Below, in pieces: positions 3,188 through 28,621 of a stretch of 64,000 nt of DNA. The DNA is from Agromyces cerinus subsp. cerinus (GTDB lineage: Bacteria > Actinomycetota > Actinomycetes > Actinomycetales > Microbacteriaceae), in NCBI RefSeq assembly GCF_900142065.1, contig NZ_FSRJ01000001.1, positions 620,001-684,000 of the forward strand. The letters run 5' to 3'. Under the pieces are notes generated by a model. The model searched no databases and had not been told where the DNA came from. It saw nothing but the letters and a program-made list of their open reading frames with translations. Within the stretch, counting starts at the first letter, position 1. Every line of letters starts with the position of its first letter. The position numbers and the translations under genes were made by a program.

Positions 3188-3682
3188 ATGCTCACAGGTC
3201 AGGTCGCTGTCATCGGGAACCGCGGCTGGTTCGGACGTGCTGTGCAAGTCGTCACCCGGTCGGCATGGAACCACAACGTGGTCGCGATCAACGAGCTTGA
3301 GTGCGTGTCGGCAGAACCAGGCGGCGCAATCATCCGCCCCATCAGCTATTACAACACTGACACTGTTGCATGGTCACAGTTCGACCTCACCCCGGAGCAA
3401 CGCGACCGCATCAGCATGTGGGCGTTCAACCACTTGGGTACTGAGTACGACCACCTCGGGTTCGTGGCCATTGCGGTGACGAAGATTCTTGGCCCGTTCG
3501 CACCCCGCTGGTTGCTGAGGTACATCGGCACACGCGACCGCCTCATTTGCTCATACCTGTGTGATCTCGCGTTGCAGGCGGGCGGCATTCACGTGTTCAA
3601 AGACCACCGCCCTCGAGGCTGTGTGACACCGGGCAGCTTCGGGAAAATGTTCGTCTTGAGAGGGTGGGCAGACAAGCCATGA
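3188..3682 (+). CDS. Permuted papain-like amidase (NlpC/P60-LRAT type)
   Basis: The 164-residue protein begins with a short strand and then 'SAWNHNVVAI', where His would be catalytic. It later has 'RLICSYLCDLALQ', where the Cys starting a helix would be the nucleophile. The His-before-Cys order is that of circularly permuted NlpC/P60 (YiiX/LRAT-like) hydrolases. GGGGG lies 5 nt before ATG. The gene sits with early-region small genes, not with the M23 endolysin, so a separate role is likely: cleaving an amide bond in cell wall, lipid or protein. Its final bases overlap the next gene (ATGA). Confidence 0.65.
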   Translation: MLTGQVAVIGNRGWFGRAVQVVTRSAWNHNVVAINELECVSAEPGGAIIRPISYYNTDTVAWSQFDLTPEQRDRISMWAFNHLGTEYDHLGFVAIAVTKILGPFAPRWLLRYIGTRDRLICSYLCDLALQAGGIHVFKDHRPRGCVTPGSFGKMFVLRGWADKP

Positions 3683-3984: not shown

Positions 3985-4335
3985 ATGCGTGTCTGCTCGC
4001 AGGCTGGATGCCCTACCCTCTACGACACACCCCACTCACGCTGCCCCACCCACCGTGCAATTGCCGACAGGGCTAGGGGCACAGCAACAGACAGAGGCTA
4101 CGCCTCACGTGGGCACAAGAACTTCCGCAACCAAACCTTGACGCGTGACCCCATCTGCACCCTGTGTGGTGTACGTGAGAGCACAGTCGCAGACCACTAC
4201 CCGATCAGCCGGCGCGACCTCATCGAGTTCAGCATGGACCCCAACGACCCCGCCCACGGGCGCGGACTTTGCAAGCCATGCCATGACAGCTCCACCGCCG
4301 AGAACCAGCCAGGAGGCTGGAACACCCCGAACTGA
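3985..4335 (+). CDS. HNH endonuclease
   Basis: The 116-residue protein carries the HNH signature 'VADHYPISRRDLIEF' followed by 'GRGLCKPCHDS', with zinc-binding 'CTLC' before and 'CKPC' at the end. Small HNH proteins of this length beside terminase genes cooperate with the large subunit in cos cleavage in HK97-like phages (established for that family). Here terminase starts about 920 bp downstream, with a second HNH gene in between. An AAGGA site precedes ATG. Role in cos cutting is inference from family and position. Confidence 0.85.
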   Translation: MRVCSQAGCPTLYDTPHSRCPTHRAIADRARGTATDRGYASRGHKNFRNQTLTRDPICTLCGVRESTVADHYPISRRDLIEFSMDPNDPAHGRGLCKPCHDSSTAENQPGGWNTPN

Positions 4336-12789: not shown

Positions 12790-13193
12790 GCGCAGAAGCA
12801 CATCACGACGCCCTCGTTGCTCGTTTGAAGGCGCACCAGTATTTGTCGGATGCGGTGTTCGAGGTTGGGTCTGTCCCGCCGAACACTCCGTTGCTCCGGT
12901 ATGTGGTTGTGGCGTCGTCTCTTGGTGATCGTGAGCAGGTTCGTTTCACGGCTGGGAAGACATCGTTGACGACGAGTCATGTTCTGTATTGCGTCGGTTC
13001 GACCTCAGCTTCGGCTCGGAAGGTCGGGTCTTGGGTTGAGGCTCAGATGCTCGACTACAACCTGACGATCTCTGGGCGTTCTGTGCGCCGGCCCGACCCG
13101 TGGACTTCTCGTCCTATCCAGGTTGATAAGGATGGCCCGATTGTGTGGCCGTTTGCGACGATCTCGTTTGATATCACGTCCGAACCTGCCTAG
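12786..13193 (+). CDS. Tail terminator protein
   Basis: The 135-residue protein overlaps the gp10-like gene by 4 nt and is the last gene before the tail tube, the usual place of the tail terminator. It is an alpha/beta protein ('LLRYVVVASSLGDRE', 'HVLYCVGSTSASARKVG'), as expected for lambda gpU-like minor tail proteins. It would cap the tube and define its length together with the tape measure. Sequence similarity of this class is low, so the call relies mainly on position. Confidence 0.75.
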   Translation: MSAEAHHDALVARLKAHQYLSDAVFEVGSVPPNTPLLRYVVVASSLGDREQVRFTAGKTSLTTSHVLYCVGSTSASARKVGSWVEAQMLDYNLTISGRSVRRPDPWTSRPIQVDKDGPIVWPFATISFDITSEPA

Positions 13194-13213
13194 CCCGTCC
13201 TACACCTCTTGAG

Positions 13214-13236
13214 AACCCCGCCTTGTGCGGGGTTTT
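13214..13236 (+). terminator. Hairpin before the tail tube gene
   Basis: AACCCCGC (13214-13221) pairs with GCGGGGTT (13227-13234) and is followed by TTCGCATTT. With a second hairpin after the tail tube gene, it could set that gene's mRNA level apart from its neighbours. A small GC-rich repeat follows at 13250-13290 before the next start. Confidence 0.65.
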
Positions 13237-13316
13237 CGCATTTAAGCGACCCGCCAACCCGGTGGGTAACCCGGTCCTGCGGGTTCTCCGACAGGACTCA
13301 ATAGAAGGAGAATCCT

Positions 13317-13823
13317 ATGGCGTTGGAAACTACTCCGACCTCGTCCCAGTCCGATGGCAAATGGCGGATCTGGTCCGTCCCGATCGGGAGCAACGCGCTT
13401 AGCGTTGCGATCCTTAACGGTGCGACCGCGAAGTCCCTCACGTACGGCCTCACGGCTGATGGTTTCGACCACCAGACCACGCAGGCGACCGTTGAGGACA
13501 AGCGTCTCACGCTGGTCCAGGACTTGTCCGCGCCTGGTCGCGTCACGGAGACGGTGAACCTCAAGGTCGTGTCATCGACGACTTCCGACTCGGCTGACCA
13601 GGTGCTGTCGGCGCTGGCTGTCAGCGGCGCGCTGATTCAGCTCACGGTTCGTCGCGCGGTGGACAACGCGACGATCGCGACGGTTGCTCAGGTCGTGGAT
13701 GTTCTCACGGGCCGTGTTGGTGTGCGTCGTGCTGATGCGCCGGTTGAGAACGGTGTTGACACGGCTCAGTACCAGTTCTTCCCGTCTTCGCCGACTCAGC
13801 GCCAAGCAGTGCTCGTCGCGTAA
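13317..13823 (+). CDS. Major tail (tube) protein
   Basis: The 168-residue beta-rich protein follows AGAAGGAG, the strongest ribosome site in the tail region, as expected for an abundant tube subunit. It contains 'GATAKSLTYGLTADGF' and 'DKRLTLVQDLSAPGRVTE' and a C-terminal 'NGVDTAQYQFFPSSPTQ', features of actinophage tube proteins. It is bracketed by hairpins at 13214 and 13831, which may isolate its transcript. Position between tail terminator and chaperones supports the call. Confidence 0.85.
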   Translation: MALETTPTSSQSDGKWRIWSVPIGSNALSVAILNGATAKSLTYGLTADGFDHQTTQATVEDKRLTLVQDLSAPGRVTETVNLKVVSSTTSDSADQVLSALAVSGALIQLTVRRAVDNATIATVAQVVDVLTGRVGVRRADAPVENGVDTAQYQFFPSSPTQRQAVLVA

Positions 13824-13830
13824 TTAGACC

Positions 13831-13862
13831 GCCGGGCGGGTTGCCCCATCGACCCGCCCGGC
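13831..13862 (+). terminator. Terminator-like hairpin after the tail tube gene
   Basis: GCCGGGCGGGT (13831-13841) pairs perfectly with ACCCGCCCGGC (13852-13862) around a 10-nt loop; TTCACTTTT follows. Partial termination here would keep tail tube mRNA above downstream tail mRNA. Confidence 0.7.
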
Positions 13863-13886
13863 TTCACTTTTCCTGATGGGGGATGG

Positions 13887-14309
13887 ATGGGGATCATGAG
13901 TTTTCTGGAAGACCTTGCTGCTGCGCATGAGAAGCCGAAGCCGAAGTCTGAGCCGGTGTCGGTGATGTTGAACGGCACGCACTACGAGTTGGTGTTTGAG
14001 CGCGCAGACGGTGACGTGTGGGCTGAATGCGTGTCCCGTCACCCGGCTCGAGAAGAGTCGAAGATTGATCTTCGGTATGGATACAACTTCAACGAGGTCG
14101 TGTTGGAGATTGCACCGAAAACGGGCCGCCTCGTGGACGGCACCGGCATTGGCGCTGACGCGTGGACGGTTCTTATTCCGACGCTGTCGGGTGCCGAGAT
14201 TGGCCGTGTCACTGACGCGATTTGGGCACTCAATGAGTGGAACCCGGCTCAGGAGATTGAACGGGCAAAAAAAGCCTCCAAGGCCGGTTCGAAGAGGAAG
14301 TCCAGCTAG
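13887..14309 (+). CDS. Tail assembly chaperone, short form (gpG-like)
   Basis: The 140-residue protein is the unshifted product. It is alpha/beta and ends in a Lys/Ser-rich helix (AKKASKAGSKRKSS). Chaperones of this type bind the tape measure and are not in the virion. ATG 13887 is used; ATG 13896 three codons later has GGGG just before it and could be the true start. The slippery site lies 36 nt before the stop, so some ribosomes continue into the gpT frame. Confidence 0.85.
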   Translation: MGIMSFLEDLAAAHEKPKPKSEPVSVMLNGTHYELVFERADGDVWAECVSRHPAREESKIDLRYGYNFNEVVLEIAPKTGRLVDGTGIGADAWTVLIPTLSGAEIGRVTDAIWALNEWNPAQEIERAKKASKAGSKRKSS

Positions 14310-14680
14310 CTCGCGAGCTGGGTGTTTCTGTTTCGCGCCTGTTGGGGCGTGAACCGGTCGAACGCCACGAGCATTACGACGCGGACGGGGTTCTGACGGG
14401 TGTGACGGTGGTATCACGTGATGCGGAGTTCACTCGGGAGGACGTGACGCGTCTACTGGCTTCGCGACGCCTCGAACGCGAGATGGGTCCGCACGGCATC
14501 CCAATGTCAGAAGCGTTGGACCCGGCTAACCAGTTCGCTTTCGAAGCACCCGAGAAGCCGCAAATCGACTGGGCGGAGAAGACCGCACAGGACCAGGCGG
14601 AGCGTTACTACAAAACGCGTCCCAAGGGTGAGTCTCGCAACGGTCACAGGTGGGGGCGGGTTACCCGTAGGTCAGGGTAG
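13887..14680 (+). CDS. Tail assembly chaperone, -1 frameshift fusion (gpGT-like)
   Basis: A -1 slip on A7 at 14267-14273 joins the gpG frame to an ORF that is open from the slip site to 14680, giving about 264 residues. The gpT part starts SLQGRFEEEVQLARELGV and has a helical centre ending with 'DWAEKTAQDQAERYY'. No good independent start or ribosome site exists for this frame, only TTG 14342. This G/GT arrangement immediately before the tape measure is conserved across siphoviruses. Its 3' end overlaps the convergent lipoprotein gene by 20 nt. Confidence 0.85.
14267..14273 (+). promoter_or_regulatory. Programmed -1 frameshift site, AAAAAAA
   Basis: The heptamer is in the right phase for tandem slippage: it reads A-AAA-AAA in the gpG frame (codons GCA AAA AAA GCC). 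Both tRNA-Lys can re-pair with AAA after a -1 step. The gpG stop follows at 14307-14309 and the -1 frame is open through 14680. No strong downstream pseudoknot was identified by eye. Confidence 0.85.
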
Positions 14681-15023
14681 CTTCGATCGGCTCTGTGGGT
14701 TGTCCGTCTTTGAACGTGACCATGCAGAGGACTCCGGCGCTGCGGTCTTTGCCGTCTTCGCGGTACCAGAGGTCGCCGGTTGTTGCCCACAGGACGTCGG
14801 CTTCTGGGTCGTCGGGTAGCGGGTTGTCGATGAGTTCTTTCATCGCGTCGGACATGTTCGATGTCTCGAGCTTGCTGGTGTTGACCTCTTCCGCGCCGGT
14901 CGGGAGCTGGGCGACCGCGTCGTCGATGCATCCCTTGTGGGCTGTCGCACCGTCACCTCCGCCTGCGCATCCGGCGAGTAGGAGGGTGGCGGCGATTGCC
15001 GCGCCCGCGAGTGCTTTCTTCAT
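14661..15023 (-). CDS. Prophage-encoded lipoprotein (moron)
   Basis: The 120-residue protein begins MKKALAGAAIAATLLLAGC, a clean lipoprotein signal peptide with lipobox LAGC (Cys 19), so it would be anchored on the outer face of the membrane. The mature part is about 100 residues, acidic, with two Cys and 'DVLWATTGDLWYRED'. It is the only minus-strand gene inside the late operon, lying between tail chaperones and tape measure; its 3' end overlaps gpT by 20 nt. Antisense placement suggests independent expression in lysogens. Known small phage lipoproteins (for example Ltp of phage TP-J34) exclude superinfecting phage; applying that here is inference. Confidence 0.8.
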   Translation of the reverse strand: MKKALAGAAIAATLLLAGCAGGGDGATAHKGCIDDAVAQLPTGAEEVNTSKLETSNMSDAMKELIDNPLPDDPEADVLWATTGDLWYREDGKDRSAGVLCMVTFKDGQPTEPIEATLTYG

Positions 15024-15034
15024 GACCGAACCGT

Positions 15035-15056
15035 ACCGCCTTGGGGCGGGTTTTTT
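15035..15056 (+). terminator. Intrinsic terminator before the tape measure gene
   Basis: CCGCC (15036-15040) pairs with GGCGG (15045-15049) around TTGG, and a run of six T follows (15051-15056). It reads on the plus strand, just after the antisense lipoprotein and 33 nt before the tape measure start, so it would limit late transcription into tape measure unless read through. A second small hairpin, AGGGG-CTG-CCCCT, follows at 15059-15071. Confidence 0.6.
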
Positions 15057-15088
15057 GTAGGGGCTGCCCCTGAACTGGAGGTACGGCG

Positions 15089-17821
15089 ATGGTCGATCGT
15101 GTAACGAAGGTCACTCTTACTGCGCAGGCTGCTCAGTACATCAATGAGATGCAGAAGGCGGCGAAGGCCACTACTGAGACTGCGAATGCTGCTCAGAAGT
15201 TGCAGCAGCAGGAGAAGACGTTCAACGCGATCGGTAAGGCCGCGATGGCGGTCGGAACTGTTGCCGCGGTGGGTGTTGGTTTGGCTGTGTCGAAGTTCGC
15301 TGAGTTCGACAAGGCGATGTCTGGCGTTCAGGCGGCTACGCATGAGTCGACGGAGAGCATGTCGGCTTTGCGTGATGCTGCGCTCGAGGCTGGCGCTTCG
15401 ACGGTGTTCACTGCTTCGGAGTCTGCCCGTGCGATTGAGGAGCTGGCGAAGGCTGGCGTTTCGACCGCGGACATTCTTGGCGGCGGGTTGAAGGGTTCTC
15501 TGGATCTTGCCGCTGCGGGCGAGCTTGAGGTTGGTGCTGCGGCTGAGATTGCCGCGTCGGCTCTCACCCAGTTCAACCTTGCGGGTTCGGATGTGCCGCA
15601 TGTCGCGGATGTTCTCGCTGCCGGTGCGGGTAAGGCGCAGGGTTCCGTGGAGGACATGTCTGCTGCGCTGAACCAGGCGGGTGGCGTCGCAGCGGGTATG
15701 GGCATCTCCCTTGAGGAGACTGTCGGTTCGTTGTCGTTGTTCGCTTCGGCCGGCTATGTGGGGTCGGATGCGGGTACGTCGTTCCGGCAGATGTTGTTGC
15801 GCTTGTCGAACCCGACCGATGAAGCCAAGCAGGTCATGGATGAGCTTGGCATCAGCGTGTATGACGCTTCGGGTCAGTTCGTTGGCATGCAGAGTGTTGC
15901 GGGTCAGCTCCAGAACCAGATGTCGACGATGTCGGCGGAGACTCGTGACGCAGCGTTGGCCACGATCTTCGGTGCGGATGCGATTCGTACTGCGCGCGTG
16001 CTGTACACGTCTGGTGCTGAGGGTGTCGCGTCGTGGACTTCGAAGGTTGATGACTCGGGGTATGCGGCGGAGACTGCTGCGCTGCGGATGGACAACCTTG
16101 CTGGTGATGTGGAGAAGCTTGGTGGTGCGTTCGATACGGCACTGATCAAGTCGGGTGCTGCGGCGAATGATGCGTTGCGTGGTTTGACGCAGGGTGTCAC
16201 TGCGATGGTCGATGGTTTCGCGTCTGCCCCTCAGGGAGTGCAGGGGGCTGCGCTTGCGATCGGGGCTGTGACTGCTGCTGTTGGGCTTGCGGGCGGGGCG
16301 TTCTTGTTGGCGGTTCCGAAGATTGCTGCGTTCAGGGCCGCGTTGGCGACCATGTCGCCGGCTACTCAGCGGGCCGCGACGGTGCTTGGCGCGGTTGGTA
16401 AGGCTGCCGGGTTCCTCGCGACCCTGGGTGTTGCGGTGTCAATTCTGGACAAGCTTGCGGTGTCGGGTGACCGTGCTGCGATCAGTCTCGGCAAAGTGAC
16501 CGAAGCGTTGAACGATGGTGACTTGGATGCGACGTTCGCGACCATGACGGGCAGTGTGAAGGACTTCTCTGAGGCTCTCGAGCTGGTCGAGGGTTCTGGC
16601 TTCGATGCCCAGATGGAACGTATGGGCGAAGCGCTGGGTGGGAATATCGGCATTACGGGTGTTGTGACTGAGGCGCGTGCCGGGTTCACGAAGATGGGTG
16701 AGTCTCTCGCGCAGATGGTGAACGAGGGCAAGGGCACTCAGGCGGCACAGATCTTCGCGGAGATTGCCCGTAAGGCCGATGAGCAGGGCATCTCTTTGGC
16801 GAAGGTTGAAGCGTTGATGCCGGCGTACACGGATGCGATTGCTGTTGCGTCTGGTGCGCAGGAGGAGGCTTCGGTTTCGTCGGCTGCGATGTCCGAGGGC
16901 ATCGAGGGTGTGGAGTCTGCTGCTGATTCTGCGAAGGATTCTGTCGAGTCGTTGGCGGATACGATCCGTGGTTTCGGTGACTCACAGTTGAGCGTCAATG
17001 AAGCGAACCGTGCGGTCGAGGAGTCGTTGGATTCGTTCACCGAATCTGTCGCAGCGAACGGGCAGACGCTTGACGTTACGACCGAGGCCGGACGCGCTAA
17101 CTCCGCCGCACTTGACGGTATTGCGCAGTCGTACATTGAGGCTGCTGCCGCAACGGTGGAGAACACCGGCAAGCAGTCGGATGCCATCCCGGTGATTGAG
17201 GCGGGCCGTCAGGCCGTCGTCGATGCGGGTATCGCGGCGGGCTTGTCGCAGGAAGCTGCGGAGAAGTACGCGGATTCGCTGGGACTCATTCCGGCTGATG
17301 TGCAGACGCAGGTGACGTTGCAGTCTCAGGCTGCGATGGATGCTGCGCTGCGGTTTGCGCAGGTTCTTCGGGATATGCCGAGTTCCAAGACGGTGTACCT
17401 GTACACCGAGGAACAGAGGGTTCTGTCGGGTGCGCCACGAGGGCAGATCGGTGCCGCCTACAAAGATGGCGGGATGATTCCGCACCTGTCGGGCGGTTCG
17501 CCGACGTGGTGGCGTGACGGTGTCGTGCAGGGTCCAGGTGGCCCTCGCGATGACCGTGTGGCTGCGATGTTGTCACCTGGCGAGTTCGTCGTGAACGCCG
17601 CGCAGACGGCACGGTATAGCCGCGAGCTACACGACATGAACGCAGGCACCTACGGGGGCGCAGGGGGCGTCGACATGTCGCCTGTTGTGCGTCAGTTGCA
17701 GCGTGTCGATCAGACGTTGCGTGAGGTTCGCGACCGTACCGGCACACCCGTTCCGGTGGGTGCCGTGCAGGCAGCGACGGGTTCGACGAGCGTGTTCAAC
17801 ACGAGAAATGGGCGGATCTGA
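15089..17821 (+). CDS. Tape measure protein
   Basis: The 910-residue protein is the longest in the prophage and sets tail length. It has N-terminal helices/coiled coil (residues 15-50), a phage tail tape measure domain around 65-300 ('LEAGASTVFTASESARAIEELAKAG', in parts), hydrophobic segments near 390-420 and 430-455 that may insert in the membrane during DNA entry, and a Gly-rich C terminus. GGAGG lies 8 nt before ATG. At about 1.5 angstroms per residue, a tail of roughly 130-140 nm would be expected (general rule). No lytic peptidase domain is obvious. Confidence 0.95.
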   Translation: MVDRVTKVTLTAQAAQYINEMQKAAKATTETANAAQKLQQQEKTFNAIGKAAMAVGTVAAVGVGLAVSKFAEFDKAMSGVQAATHESTESMSALRDAALEAGASTVFTASESARAIEELAKAGVSTADILGGGLKGSLDLAAAGELEVGAAAEIAASALTQFNLAGSDVPHVADVLAAGAGKAQGSVEDMSAALNQAGGVAAGMGISLEETVGSLSLFASAGYVGSDAGTSFRQMLLRLSNPTDEAKQVMDELGISVYDASGQFVGMQSVAGQLQNQMSTMSAETRDAALATIFGADAIRTARVLYTSGAEGVASWTSKVDDSGYAAETAALRMDNLAGDVEKLGGAFDTALIKSGAAANDALRGLTQGVTAMVDGFASAPQGVQGAALAIGAVTAAVGLAGGAFLLAVPKIAAFRAALATMSPATQRAATVLGAVGKAAGFLATLGVAVSILDKLAVSGDRAAISLGKVTEALNDGDLDATFATMTGSVKDFSEALELVEGSGFDAQMERMGEALGGNIGITGVVTEARAGFTKMGESLAQMVNEGKGTQAAQIFAEIARKADEQGISLAKVEALMPAYTDAIAVASGAQEEASVSSAAMSEGIEGVESAADSAKDSVESLADTIRGFGDSQLSVNEANRAVEESLDSFTESVAANGQTLDVTTEAGRANSAALDGIAQSYIEAAAATVENTGKQSDAIPVIEAGRQAVVDAGIAAGLSQEAAEKYADSLGLIPADVQTQVTLQSQAAMDAALRFAQVLRDMPSSKTVYLYTEEQRVLSGAPRGQIGAAYKDGGMIPHLSGGSPTWWRDGVVQGPGGPRDDRVAAMLSPGEFVVNAAQTARYSRELHDMNAGTYGGAGGVDMSPVVRQLQRVDQTLREVRDRTGTPVPVGAVQAATGSTSVFNTRNGRI

Positions 17822-26322: not shown

Positions 26323-27498
26323 TCACGCCTCGAGTTCGAGTTGCTTGCCGAGGCCGTCGAGCACTCGCACAATGTCTTCGTCTGCACCGGGTGCGAGGTG
26401 ACCGTACACGCTGACGGTGGTGTTGATGTTCTCGTGTCCGAGTTTGGCTTGGACGACGTTGAGGGGTGCGCCGGCTGCGAGGAGCCAGGATGCGTAGGTG
26501 TGTCGGAGGTCGTGAATGTTGGGCGTCTTGCCGAGCGGTGCGACGCCTTCTTCCTTGCACAGCTTGGGGTCGTTGACCTTCGTGACTGCTGTACGCCAGA
26601 TGCGCCCGTTGAACAGTCCATACCAGAGCCGTCCACCTTCGACGCCGTGGAAAACAAGTTCAGACTCGCCACGTTCGGGGAGGTTGTCTCGGACGTTCTG
26701 GGGGAGCGGGATCGACCGGCGACCCTTCTGCGACTTCGGGACACCGAGTACGGGGATGCCGTCTACGCCCTTCTTCCACGCCTTGTTGATCGATGCCGTG
26801 GGGGTGCGTTTCGTCAGGTCGATGTCTGACCATGTGAGCGCGGTCGCTTCACCCCAGCGTGTGCCGGTGTAGACCATGAAGATGAGCAGCGGTTTGTAGT
26901 GCTTGGGGATCTTGCTGAGGATGCGTTCGAACTCAGCATGGGTGAGGAAAACACCTTCGCGTGATTGCCCCTTGGTGATTCGCACACCGGTCACCGGGTT
27001 GTCGATGATCAGCTTCCGGTCTTTCGCTGCGGCGAAGATATTCGACAGCAACGCCCGGTAGTTCGCAACCGTCTTGGGTGCGATCGTCTGCCCCTTCCGC
27101 GACCCGGATGGTTGCGCTTCCTGCCATGCCACCCATTTGCCGATGTCGTCACGGCTGATGGTGTCGATGGGGTGGTCGCCGAGGATGGGGAGGAACGCGC
27201 CTACCATGCGTTCGTAGCCCTTCCTGGTGCCGGGTTGGATGCCGGTGAGGATTCCTGAGGCGGGGTCGAGGTAGGTCGTGGTCCACTCTGCGAGGGTGGG
27301 CGCGGTGGTTGCGGTTTCTCGTCGCCGTTGGAGGACGTTGCGTGCTATGTCGCCACCCTTGGCTGTGATGAGGGCGCAGTGCTGCCACGCGATCTTGTCG
27401 TTCTTGAACGTGTCGGTGACGACGGACCCGTTGGCCCGGTACTGCACACGCCACACGACTACGCCTGACTTGAGGCGGTGCGGCTTCGGCTCAGGCAT
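26323..27498 (-). CDS. int: Tyrosine recombinase (phage integrase)
   Basis: The 391-residue protein has an N-terminal AP2-like arm-binding domain (residues 1-55), a SAM-like core-binding domain (70-180) and a catalytic domain with the full tetrad: Arg in 'TGTRWGE', 'HDLRHTYAS', 'LGHENINTT' and Tyr in 'VYGHLAP'. It cuts and joins att sites. ATG 27498 is chosen because the longer open frame up to 27750 crosses the att site and tRNA; it overlaps the stop of the 45-residue upstream ORF, so translation is coupled. The gene faces away from tRNA-His. Confidence 0.95.
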   Translation of the reverse strand: MPEPKPHRLKSGVVVWRVQYRANGSVVTDTFKNDKIAWQHCALITAKGGDIARNVLQRRRETATTAPTLAEWTTTYLDPASGILTGIQPGTRKGYERMVGAFLPILGDHPIDTISRDDIGKWVAWQEAQPSGSRKGQTIAPKTVANYRALLSNIFAAAKDRKLIIDNPVTGVRITKGQSREGVFLTHAEFERILSKIPKHYKPLLIFMVYTGTRWGEATALTWSDIDLTKRTPTASINKAWKKGVDGIPVLGVPKSQKGRRSIPLPQNVRDNLPERGESELVFHGVEGGRLWYGLFNGRIWRTAVTKVNDPKLCKEEGVAPLGKTPNIHDLRHTYASWLLAAGAPLNVVQAKLGHENINTTVSVYGHLAPGADEDIVRVLDGLGKQLELEA

Positions 27499-27628
27499 CA
27501 GCGGGGATGTCGTCGAGCACGCCACTCTCGCGGATCGCCTCGGCGATCTCGTGCCCACGGCCAAACTGAGGCGTGCCGTAGAGCTTGCGGTCAATGACAC
27601 CAGCCAGCGTCGAAATGAACGTGTCCAT
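27491..27628 (-). CDS. 45-residue ORF coupled to integrase
   Basis: ATG 27628 follows GGGGGGTT at a 3-nt gap. The 45-residue product (MDTFISTLAGVIDRKLYGTP..., ending DDIPADA) is acidic with a central helix, and its stop overlaps the integrase start by 8 nt. That makes integrase synthesis dependent on translation of this ORF. It could be an excision regulator or a leader peptide; it is too short and not basic enough for a typical Xis. Confidence 0.6.
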   Translation of the reverse strand: MDTFISTLAGVIDRKLYGTPQFGRGHEIAEAIRESGVLDDIPADA

Positions 27629-27647
27629 CGGAACCCCCCGATGACCC

Positions 27648-27667
27648 GATGTAGTGCGGGATGTAGT
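27648..27667. promoter_or_regulatory. Possible integrase arm-type sites
   Basis: GATGTAGT occurs twice, at 27648-27655 and 27660-27667, with a 12-bp period, between the integrase and the tRNA core. Short direct repeats flanking the core are the usual form of arm-type sites for the N-terminal domain of tyrosine integrases. The second copy also forms a bulged inverted repeat with CTACTCCC. Confidence 0.4.
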
Positions 27668-27705
27668 TTTCTACTCCCGAACGGGCCTACAGCCCAGTAT
27701 ATCAT

Positions 27706-27781
27706 TGGGGTGAGTAACGGGGCTTGAACCCGCGACCTCCTGGACCACAACCAGGCGCTCTACCAACTGAGCTATACCCAC
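27706..27781 (-). tRNA. tRNA-His (GTG); attR of the prophage
   Basis: Reading on the minus strand: acceptor GTGGGTA/TACTCAC (one GT pair), D arm, anticodon stem CCTGG/CCAGG with loop TTGTGGT (anticodon GTG), T arm with loop TTCAAGC, and encoded CCA (27706-27708). A G at position -1 (27782) faces C73, the histidine identity feature. The 3' end faces the integrase, so the 3' half is the attachment core that keeps the tRNA intact after integration. It lies 44 bp from orn. Confidence 0.95.
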
Positions 27782-28446: not shown

Positions 28447-28548
28447 GCAGAGAGTCTATCCGGGCGCACCGACGGCGTTGCTCGGGCCGCATCGCAGGAT
28501 CCACGAGGGGCGCTTCGCCTGGGGCGACGGAGCGATCGGCTGCTGGAG

Positions 28549-28621
28549 TGCCCCCGGCAGGAATTGAACCTGCGACCAAGAGATTAGAAGGCTCCTGCTC
28601 TATCCGCTGAGCTACGGGGGC
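28549..28621 (-). tRNA. tRNA-Arg (TCT)
   Basis: A 73-nt cloverleaf: acceptor GCCCCCG/CGGGGGC, D stem GCTC/GAGC, anticodon loop CTTCTAA (anticodon TCT) and T arm GCAGG-TTCAATT-CCTGC. CCA is not encoded. The anticodon stem has a GT closing pair and a C-U mismatch at 31-39. It decodes AGA, a rare codon in this GC-rich genome. Confidence 0.95.

Follow-up and report, generated by a model that had tools for sequence, protein, structure and literature searches.

The 64,000-nucleotide (nt) stretch of the Agromyces cerinus subsp. cerinus genome analyzed here (contig NZ_FSRJ01000001.1, positions 620,001 to 684,000, hereafter the window) contains a prophage in which a small lipoprotein gene lies antisense to the late genes, in the interval between the tail chaperone genes and the gene for the tape measure protein (TMP). 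Comparison of this interval among TMP relatives indicates an exchangeable slot for antisense moron genes, whose occupants would be expressed from the prophage and most likely serve superinfection exclusion, a reading to which we give a probability of about 0.5. The gene, the slot, the promoter signature, the protein type and the turnover are sequence-level results. We consider it likely that the window lipoprotein gene is expressed in the lysogen, and rate it slightly below even that its product excludes superinfecting phages.

A preliminary description of this DNA had pointed out a 120-residue antisense open reading frame (ORF) with a lipoprotein motif, LLLAGC, located between chaperones and TMP and overlapping gpT by 20 nt, and this ORF proved to be a real gene. 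The features that define the locus are, in window coordinates:

14664..15023, minus strand: lipoprotein coding sequence of 120 amino acids (aa) with ATG start, stop codon at 14661-14663 and lipobox LLLAGC, predicted lipidated Cys19
15030..15035, minus strand: putative -10 box TACGGT, 6 nt before the lipoprotein ATG, a leaderless-promoter signature by its sequence
13887..14309, plus strand: first tail chaperone frame (gpG-like), named by position; 76% identical in another genome of the genus (G052)
14342..14680, plus strand: second tail chaperone frame (gpT-like), named by position, whose 3' end forms the 20-nt overlap with the lipoprotein gene
15089..17821, plus strand: TMP, bounding the slot on its right (PHROG tape measure, 7e-96; Pfam PhageMin_Tail, 5e-51)
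26326..27750, minus strand: integrase gene (phrog_1 integrase, E 3e-68)

The protein begins with a clean lipoprotein signal (MKKALAGAAIAATLLLAGC), and its start lies 65 nt from the TMP start at 15089. Besides the integrase, which marks the element as a temperate prophage, a terminase, a portal and a probable endolysin are encoded. PHROG searches gave nothing better than E 0.16 for the first chaperone frame and no match for the second.

Our survey of the slot comprised the best 80 viral-contig and the best 80 genome-contig TMP relatives together with the window, three prophages of the genus and six annotated phages, and the resulting 170 loci were reduced to 146 non-redundant ones by removing TMP N-termini at least 90% identical. 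A slot gene was called where an antisense ATG ORF of 48-200 codons begins 10-90 nt before the TMP gene and encodes a lipobox or at least two hydrophobic spans, lipobox and transmembrane calls being made by simple rules, not by SignalP or DeepTMHMM. Such an ORF was present in 60 of the 146 loci (16 lipoproteins and 44 transmembrane proteins, the call in locus L170 probably being due to chance), compared with 0.36% of 14,600 anchors placed at random in these loci. These anchors lie mostly in coding DNA, and a second criterion therefore matters, namely the motif TAnnnT 5-7 nt before the ATG. It precedes 41/60 slot calls versus 37/4735 other antisense ATG ORFs. When only this signature was searched for, whatever the type of protein encoded, 51 of the 146 loci had it, 48 of them encoding a lipoprotein or transmembrane protein, against 70 of the 14,600 anchors (21 lipoprotein or transmembrane). 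Leaderless actinobacterial genes have this layout, with a -10 box a short, constant distance ahead of the start codon. Fisher tests come out extreme, but the survey loci are related to one another; when they are thinned to TMP identity below 60%, 26 remain, of which 13 are occupied and 11 of these 13 carry the -10 box. Taking both criteria together and excluding L170, an antisense gene is found in 65/146 loci, and its products are mostly lipoproteins or small proteins with two transmembrane spans. The window gene shows every feature of this group: the antisense position between chaperones and TMP, TAnnnT 5-7 nt before the ATG, and a lipobox.

The interval is thus not normally gene-free, as had been supposed. 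Iterative tblastn located the chaperone end in 102 loci. If L170 is taken as unoccupied, the slot is occupied in 63 of these and closed (at most 80 nt) in 27, while 11 have a gap above 150 nt but no call and one has 128 nt. The median gap is 260 nt with a call (n=64) versus 35 nt without (n=38), the commonest junction is a 4-nt overlap of chaperone and TMP genes, and in three of the 27 closed slots the chaperone frame reads on to the TMP start. Occupied and closed slots also occur side by side at 88% TMP identity, in L092 (gap 402) and L048 (gap 34). The gene is therefore present or absent while its flanks are conserved, the comparison that had been proposed for this interval, and together with a predicted -10 box of its own and the integrase in the window this agrees with the proposal of a moron-type gene in a temperate phage. 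Some of the 11 wide gaps without a call hold something else: an HNH endonuclease gene (Footloose), a small soluble ORF (L036) or a one-span protein (L192). The last is one of several recurring one-span antisense slot proteins that resemble one another towards the C-terminus (FDG...GAEARGY or GAQARGY...), the others being in L052 and L135. Short soluble antisense proteins with the pattern "...EL...GW.V..." lie in or abut the slot in L036, L037, L055 and L056.

The occupants differ strongly from one another. By single linkage the 65 genes form 32 families, 22 of them single proteins. Pairs of loci share a related occupant in 2/7 cases at 80-90% TMP identity, 12/52 at 70-80%, 20/309 at 60-70%, 11/1259 at 50-60% and 1/240 at 40-50%. 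Since few pairs with similar TMPs share related occupants, the slot content turns over faster than the adjoining TMP gene. We also considered a pairing of occupant and TMP, but sharing rises with TMP identity just as descent alone would give, and so provides no evidence for it. As long as they persist, slot genes are protein-coding and under constraint, as the excess of third-position changes between relatives shows: over 18 pairs of related slot genes (pairs share members) the differences at positions 1/2/3 of the antisense frame are 236/154/464, and the lipoprotein pair L084/L059 differs by 25 silent and 4 replacement codon changes.

The window lipoprotein itself has relatives elsewhere. An identical protein is encoded on an IMG/VR contig (L009), and a second viral contig (L112) carries a homologue of about 40% identity with both cysteines of the mature part in the same antisense slot, next to a TMP whose N-terminus is 55% identical. 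Counting L112 itself, which is the same contig as L197, four viral contigs (L195-L198) have an identical matched stretch, and in all four the TMP adjoins on the opposite strand, which places them in the same slot. The sole full-length match among the other 59 genomes of the genus is in G045 (33-37% identity, E 6e-16); its surroundings are phage-like, with a tail-fibre-like ORF and excisionase-like ORFs next to it, and TAGGCT precedes its ATG by 7 nt. Cys32 and Cys100 are kept in all four relatives aligned. The homologues in L112 and G045 and the third-position excess in related slot genes bear out the view that the ORF is more than chance. Matches at E 0.001 occur in six of the other 59 genus genomes, G045 included; the remaining five (E 6e-5 to 8e-4) are not counted as homologues, as they lie within longer open frames (306-573 codons) and most align at the signal-peptide end. 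Apart from the window, no further homologue was found at E 1e-6 in 398 sampled genomes of the family, and among the INPHARED phages no tblastn match was better than E 3. A related gpG-like gene is present in three of the 59 genus genomes (G052, G054, G008), none of which has the lipoprotein; in all three the gap contains a different antisense ORF, 69-82 aa long and with two or three hydrophobic spans.

A structure model of the window protein (AlphaFold from two sequences, mean pLDDT 66.8) consists of helices packed on an antiparallel sheet. Foldseek returned no match at E 0.001 in the PDB or the viral library. The top viral match (rank 1, probability 0.99, TM 0.50/0.56, but E 0.13) was a 105-aa membrane protein of Gordonia phage Finkle, which we assign to gp16, the only annotated Finkle membrane protein of 105 aa from base 4000 to the end, so that the identity of the library entry rests on length and annotation. 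Finkle gp16 also lies antisense between chaperones and TMP, has the lipobox ALSGC, aligns at Cys32 and Cys100, and is preceded by TATGAT 6 nt before its ATG. It differs in its length of 105 aa and an aligned identity of only about 25%, BLASTP aligning the signal peptides only. Without having been planned as such, this match tested the slot idea in a phage from a different genus. The suggested examination of the protein by sequence and structure comparison brought up a same-slot lipoprotein, and no exclusion family. Further comparison pointed to cystatin-like folds with Z up to 7.1, a middling value in a range called common. A model of a DUF732-like slot lipoprotein (pLDDT 87) had no significant PDB match; the Ltp structure 4eqq was not among its 12 rows, which tells nothing either way.

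Antisense genes in this slot are annotated in several phages, namely Footloose (gp15), Bridgette (gp17), TripleJ (gp17), Anekin (gp17), Auxilium (gp18) and EnalisNailo (gp17), whereas none is annotated in Hiddenleaf, Wollypog, Hadrien, AGM1, phiGD22-1, a Staphylococcus phage, Powerpuff and Lego. An integrase and an immunity repressor are encoded by the carriers Bridgette, EnalisNailo and Finkle, and an integrase by Footloose. In Microbacterium phage Footloose (L023:3011-3927) the HNH endonuclease gene sits between the antisense gene, which has TAAAGT 7 nt before its ATG, and the TMP, indicating that the slot takes other mobile genes too. Arthrobacter phage Pitbull has an unannotated 71-aa antisense ORF with two spans in the gap (L022:3487-3699), with CATGAT 6 nt before the ATG.

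The announcement of phage Periwinkle states that all Gordonia cluster DN phages have at least one reverse-transcribed gene between chaperones and TMP (PMC9476921). These share slot and orientation with the window gene; in its accessible part, the announcement offers no function, promoter or wider distribution for the slot. Periwinkle itself differs in having three stacked antisense genes (L204:1992-3207), at least two of which do not look membrane-like, among them gp17, with TACATT 7 nt before its ATG. The statement that such a gene had not been described therefore does not hold for its position, given the reverse genes annotated in Footloose and in several Arthrobacter and Gordonia phages and stated for all of cluster DN. 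It stands for function, promoter and breadth, for which we met no proposal in the part of the actinobacterial phage literature within reach, many papers lying outside it. On that basis the individual lipoprotein is new, and the slot as an organized locus of leaderless membrane-protein genes is a new variety of moron.

Exclusion is our leading guess at the function, because HK97 gp15, a reported exclusion moron, occupies the same interval and because Ltp provides a precedent. In the text available to us, gp15 is reported as a superinfection-exclusion moron of Escherichia phage HK97. Like the window gene it is a single small gene for a predicted membrane protein between the chaperone pair and the TMP of a temperate siphophage, with a terminator annotated beside it, but it lies on the sense strand and encodes a transmembrane protein, while the window gene is antisense and encodes a lipoprotein; phmmer with gp15 against the 65 slot proteins gave no match at E up to 10. 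Ltp of Streptococcus phage TP-J34 is, in the accessible descriptions, a lipoprotein encoded by a prophage of a Gram-positive host and located at the outside of the cytoplasmic membrane, and its block is overcome by tape measure changes; its gene lies in the lysogeny module beside the integrase, and not in the tail operon as in the window.

An Ltp-type identity of the window protein was rejected. It shows neither a match to PF07553, which we take to be the Pfam family of Ltp, nor a BLASTP alignment with Ltp of TP-J34; a Pfam scan at E up to 1 returned only DUF7537, below its cut-off. The proposal of a superinfection-exclusion lipoprotein is thus upheld as regards the predicted surface-anchored product beside the TMP gene, with exclusion still the best functional guess from analogy, and falls as regards a specific Ltp-like relation. 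The further suggestion that the phage's own TMP is the target is weakened, because even phages whose TMPs are alike have exchanged their slot proteins and because no TMP relative was found in G045, which has a homologue of the lipoprotein, a search made with no positive control in that genome. Two further matches were not used: NCBIfam SslE with the window protein (E 1.6e-5, 22.5 bits), far under its 3000-bit cut-off, and the Cor superinfection exclusion PHROG family, matched weakly by 3/16 slot lipoproteins (best E 0.00045), because the window protein has no such match at E 0.01 and a signal peptide alone may explain it.

In the model we favor, the late operon would be silent in the prophage, and host RNA polymerase would read the lipoprotein gene alone from its -10 box. 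After export and lipidation the lipoprotein would sit at the outside of the cytoplasmic membrane, where it would most likely hinder superinfecting long-tailed phages from bringing in their DNA, as HK97 gp15 and Ltp are reported to do in the accessible sources. An arms race over the range of excluded phages would then explain why unrelated small membrane proteins replace one another in the slot.

Several observations weigh against this model. There is no conserved -35 motif upstream of the slot -10 boxes, and a generic sigma-70 two-hexamer scan of 13000-16000 found 0 promoters, with 0.4 expected. Some occupants are not membrane proteins (L055, L091 and probably L036 and Periwinkle gp17). The slot is filled less often in bacterial genome contigs than in viral contigs, both overall (14/75 versus 42/61) and where the chaperone was located (13/33 versus 41/59), the opposite of a simple prophage-benefit expectation, although TMPs in the genome sample are more distant. 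Powerpuff is temperate and its lysogens resist related phages, according to the accessible text of PMC8758107, yet its slot is closed. Neither the window protein against known defence and exclusion families nor the 16 slot lipoproteins against a defence library gave a match. Finally, codon-usage log-odds trained on TMP genes left 160/170 loci without a call at score >=10 and were negative for the window gene; as this score failed to separate slot genes from noise, it was dropped in favor of the codon-position comparison of related pairs.

The main rival to exclusion is that the slot genes are lysogenic-conversion surface genes with another role, such as surface binding, signalling, stress or interaction with predators or a niche, the moron simply residing in a tolerated insertion site. 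The slot, promoter and turnover evidence fits this too, 5/16 slot lipoproteins match the functionally uncharacterized family DUF732 (E up to 0.1, best 1.5e-8), and the cystatin-like folds resembled by the window model are a general binding scaffold. Adjacency to the TMP and the many very small two-span products would fit exclusion better than a metabolic or adhesive function, and we regard the rival as unlikely, if still a serious contender.

A role in the lytic cycle, as a holin- or antiholin-like protein, in lysis timing or in blocking further adsorption during infection, is improbable. It could draw on the small two-span products and on weak matches to Pfam Holin-X (4/36, best E 0.0076) and to Rz-like spanin PHROGs, but the gene opposes the late operon and has its own -10 signature, and separate lysis genes are present in four annotated carriers. 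Since Micrococcales hosts lack an outer membrane, a spanin-type mechanism would not be expected in them.

We hold it to be similarly improbable that the antisense transcript itself is the functional product, silencing or insulating chaperone and TMP transcription in the prophage with the protein incidental. The recurrent antisense orientation would suit such a role, as would terminator-like and ribosome-binding-site-hiding hairpins at the TMP side in the window:

15036..15055, plus strand (late-gene strand): terminator-like hairpin CCGCC-TTGG-GGCGG followed by a T run, a consensus match only
15032..15086, plus strand: inverted repeat CCGTACC...GGTACGG, which would enclose the TMP ribosome-binding site GGAGG at 15077-15081

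Terminator-like sites of the first kind number 6 in the 3 kb scanned versus 3.2 expected. The interval of the inverted repeat has a folding z-score of -2.8 (plus strand, 15024-15088), and the repeat is also kept in G052. What speaks against the transcript as the product are the third-position excess, the lipobox and transmembrane features, the conserved cysteines, and the many related phages without an antisense gene; hairpins around the slot -10 are only weakly enriched (13/50 versus a mean of 6.3 and a maximum of 12 in shuffles). On the minus strand, a consensus scan listed only two terminator-like sites, 14321-14302 and 14285-14273; both lie within the chaperone genes, about 340 nt past the end of the lipoprotein gene. 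A palindrome at 15059 (AGGGGCTGCCCCT) was rejected as an operator candidate, its recurrence being no greater than chance.

That the ORF is a spurious shadow of a plus-strand gene, for which a 121-aa plus-strand ORF overlaps it (14695-15060) and the codon-usage score lends no support to coding, has next to no chance of being right, as homologues in two other contexts keep the lipobox and cysteines, other slot genes show codon-position bias in the antisense frame, and the promoter signature is present.

Elsewhere in the window, a tRNA-His gene (27706-27781) that overlaps the called integrase ORF may be an attachment site, and a tRNA-Arg follows at 28548-28621. A tRNA-Leu(CAA) at 35-109, upstream of a phage-type exonuclease gene, may be phage-borne; Footloose also has a tRNA-Leu(CAA). 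The ORF at 3188-3679, upstream of the packaging genes, matches PHROG 1128, "enoyl-CoA hydratase/carnithine racemase-like" (E 6e-22).

A broader and rather doubtful extension of the exclusion model is that temperate actinobacterial siphophages share a dedicated, exchangeable antisense cassette site in the tail operon, the chaperone-TMP slot. Its leaderless genes would be expressed from the prophage and encode surface proteins that have many unrelated folds but a single task, determining which phages can inject DNA through the lysogen membrane. Transcription of the late tail genes may also be kept off in the prophage by the antisense promoter, making exclusion and silencing one switch.

Prophage exclusion genes are hard to find since they share little sequence, and a fixed position with a recurrent promoter signature allows candidates to be collected free of homology; a single tape measure lineage has already yielded these 65 candidates in 32 families. 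If several occupants block infection, the slot would be a predictable place for actinobacterial exclusion genes, whose action at the tape measure step would be directly testable, and the unnamed reverse "membrane protein" genes annotated beside the TMP would gain a role.
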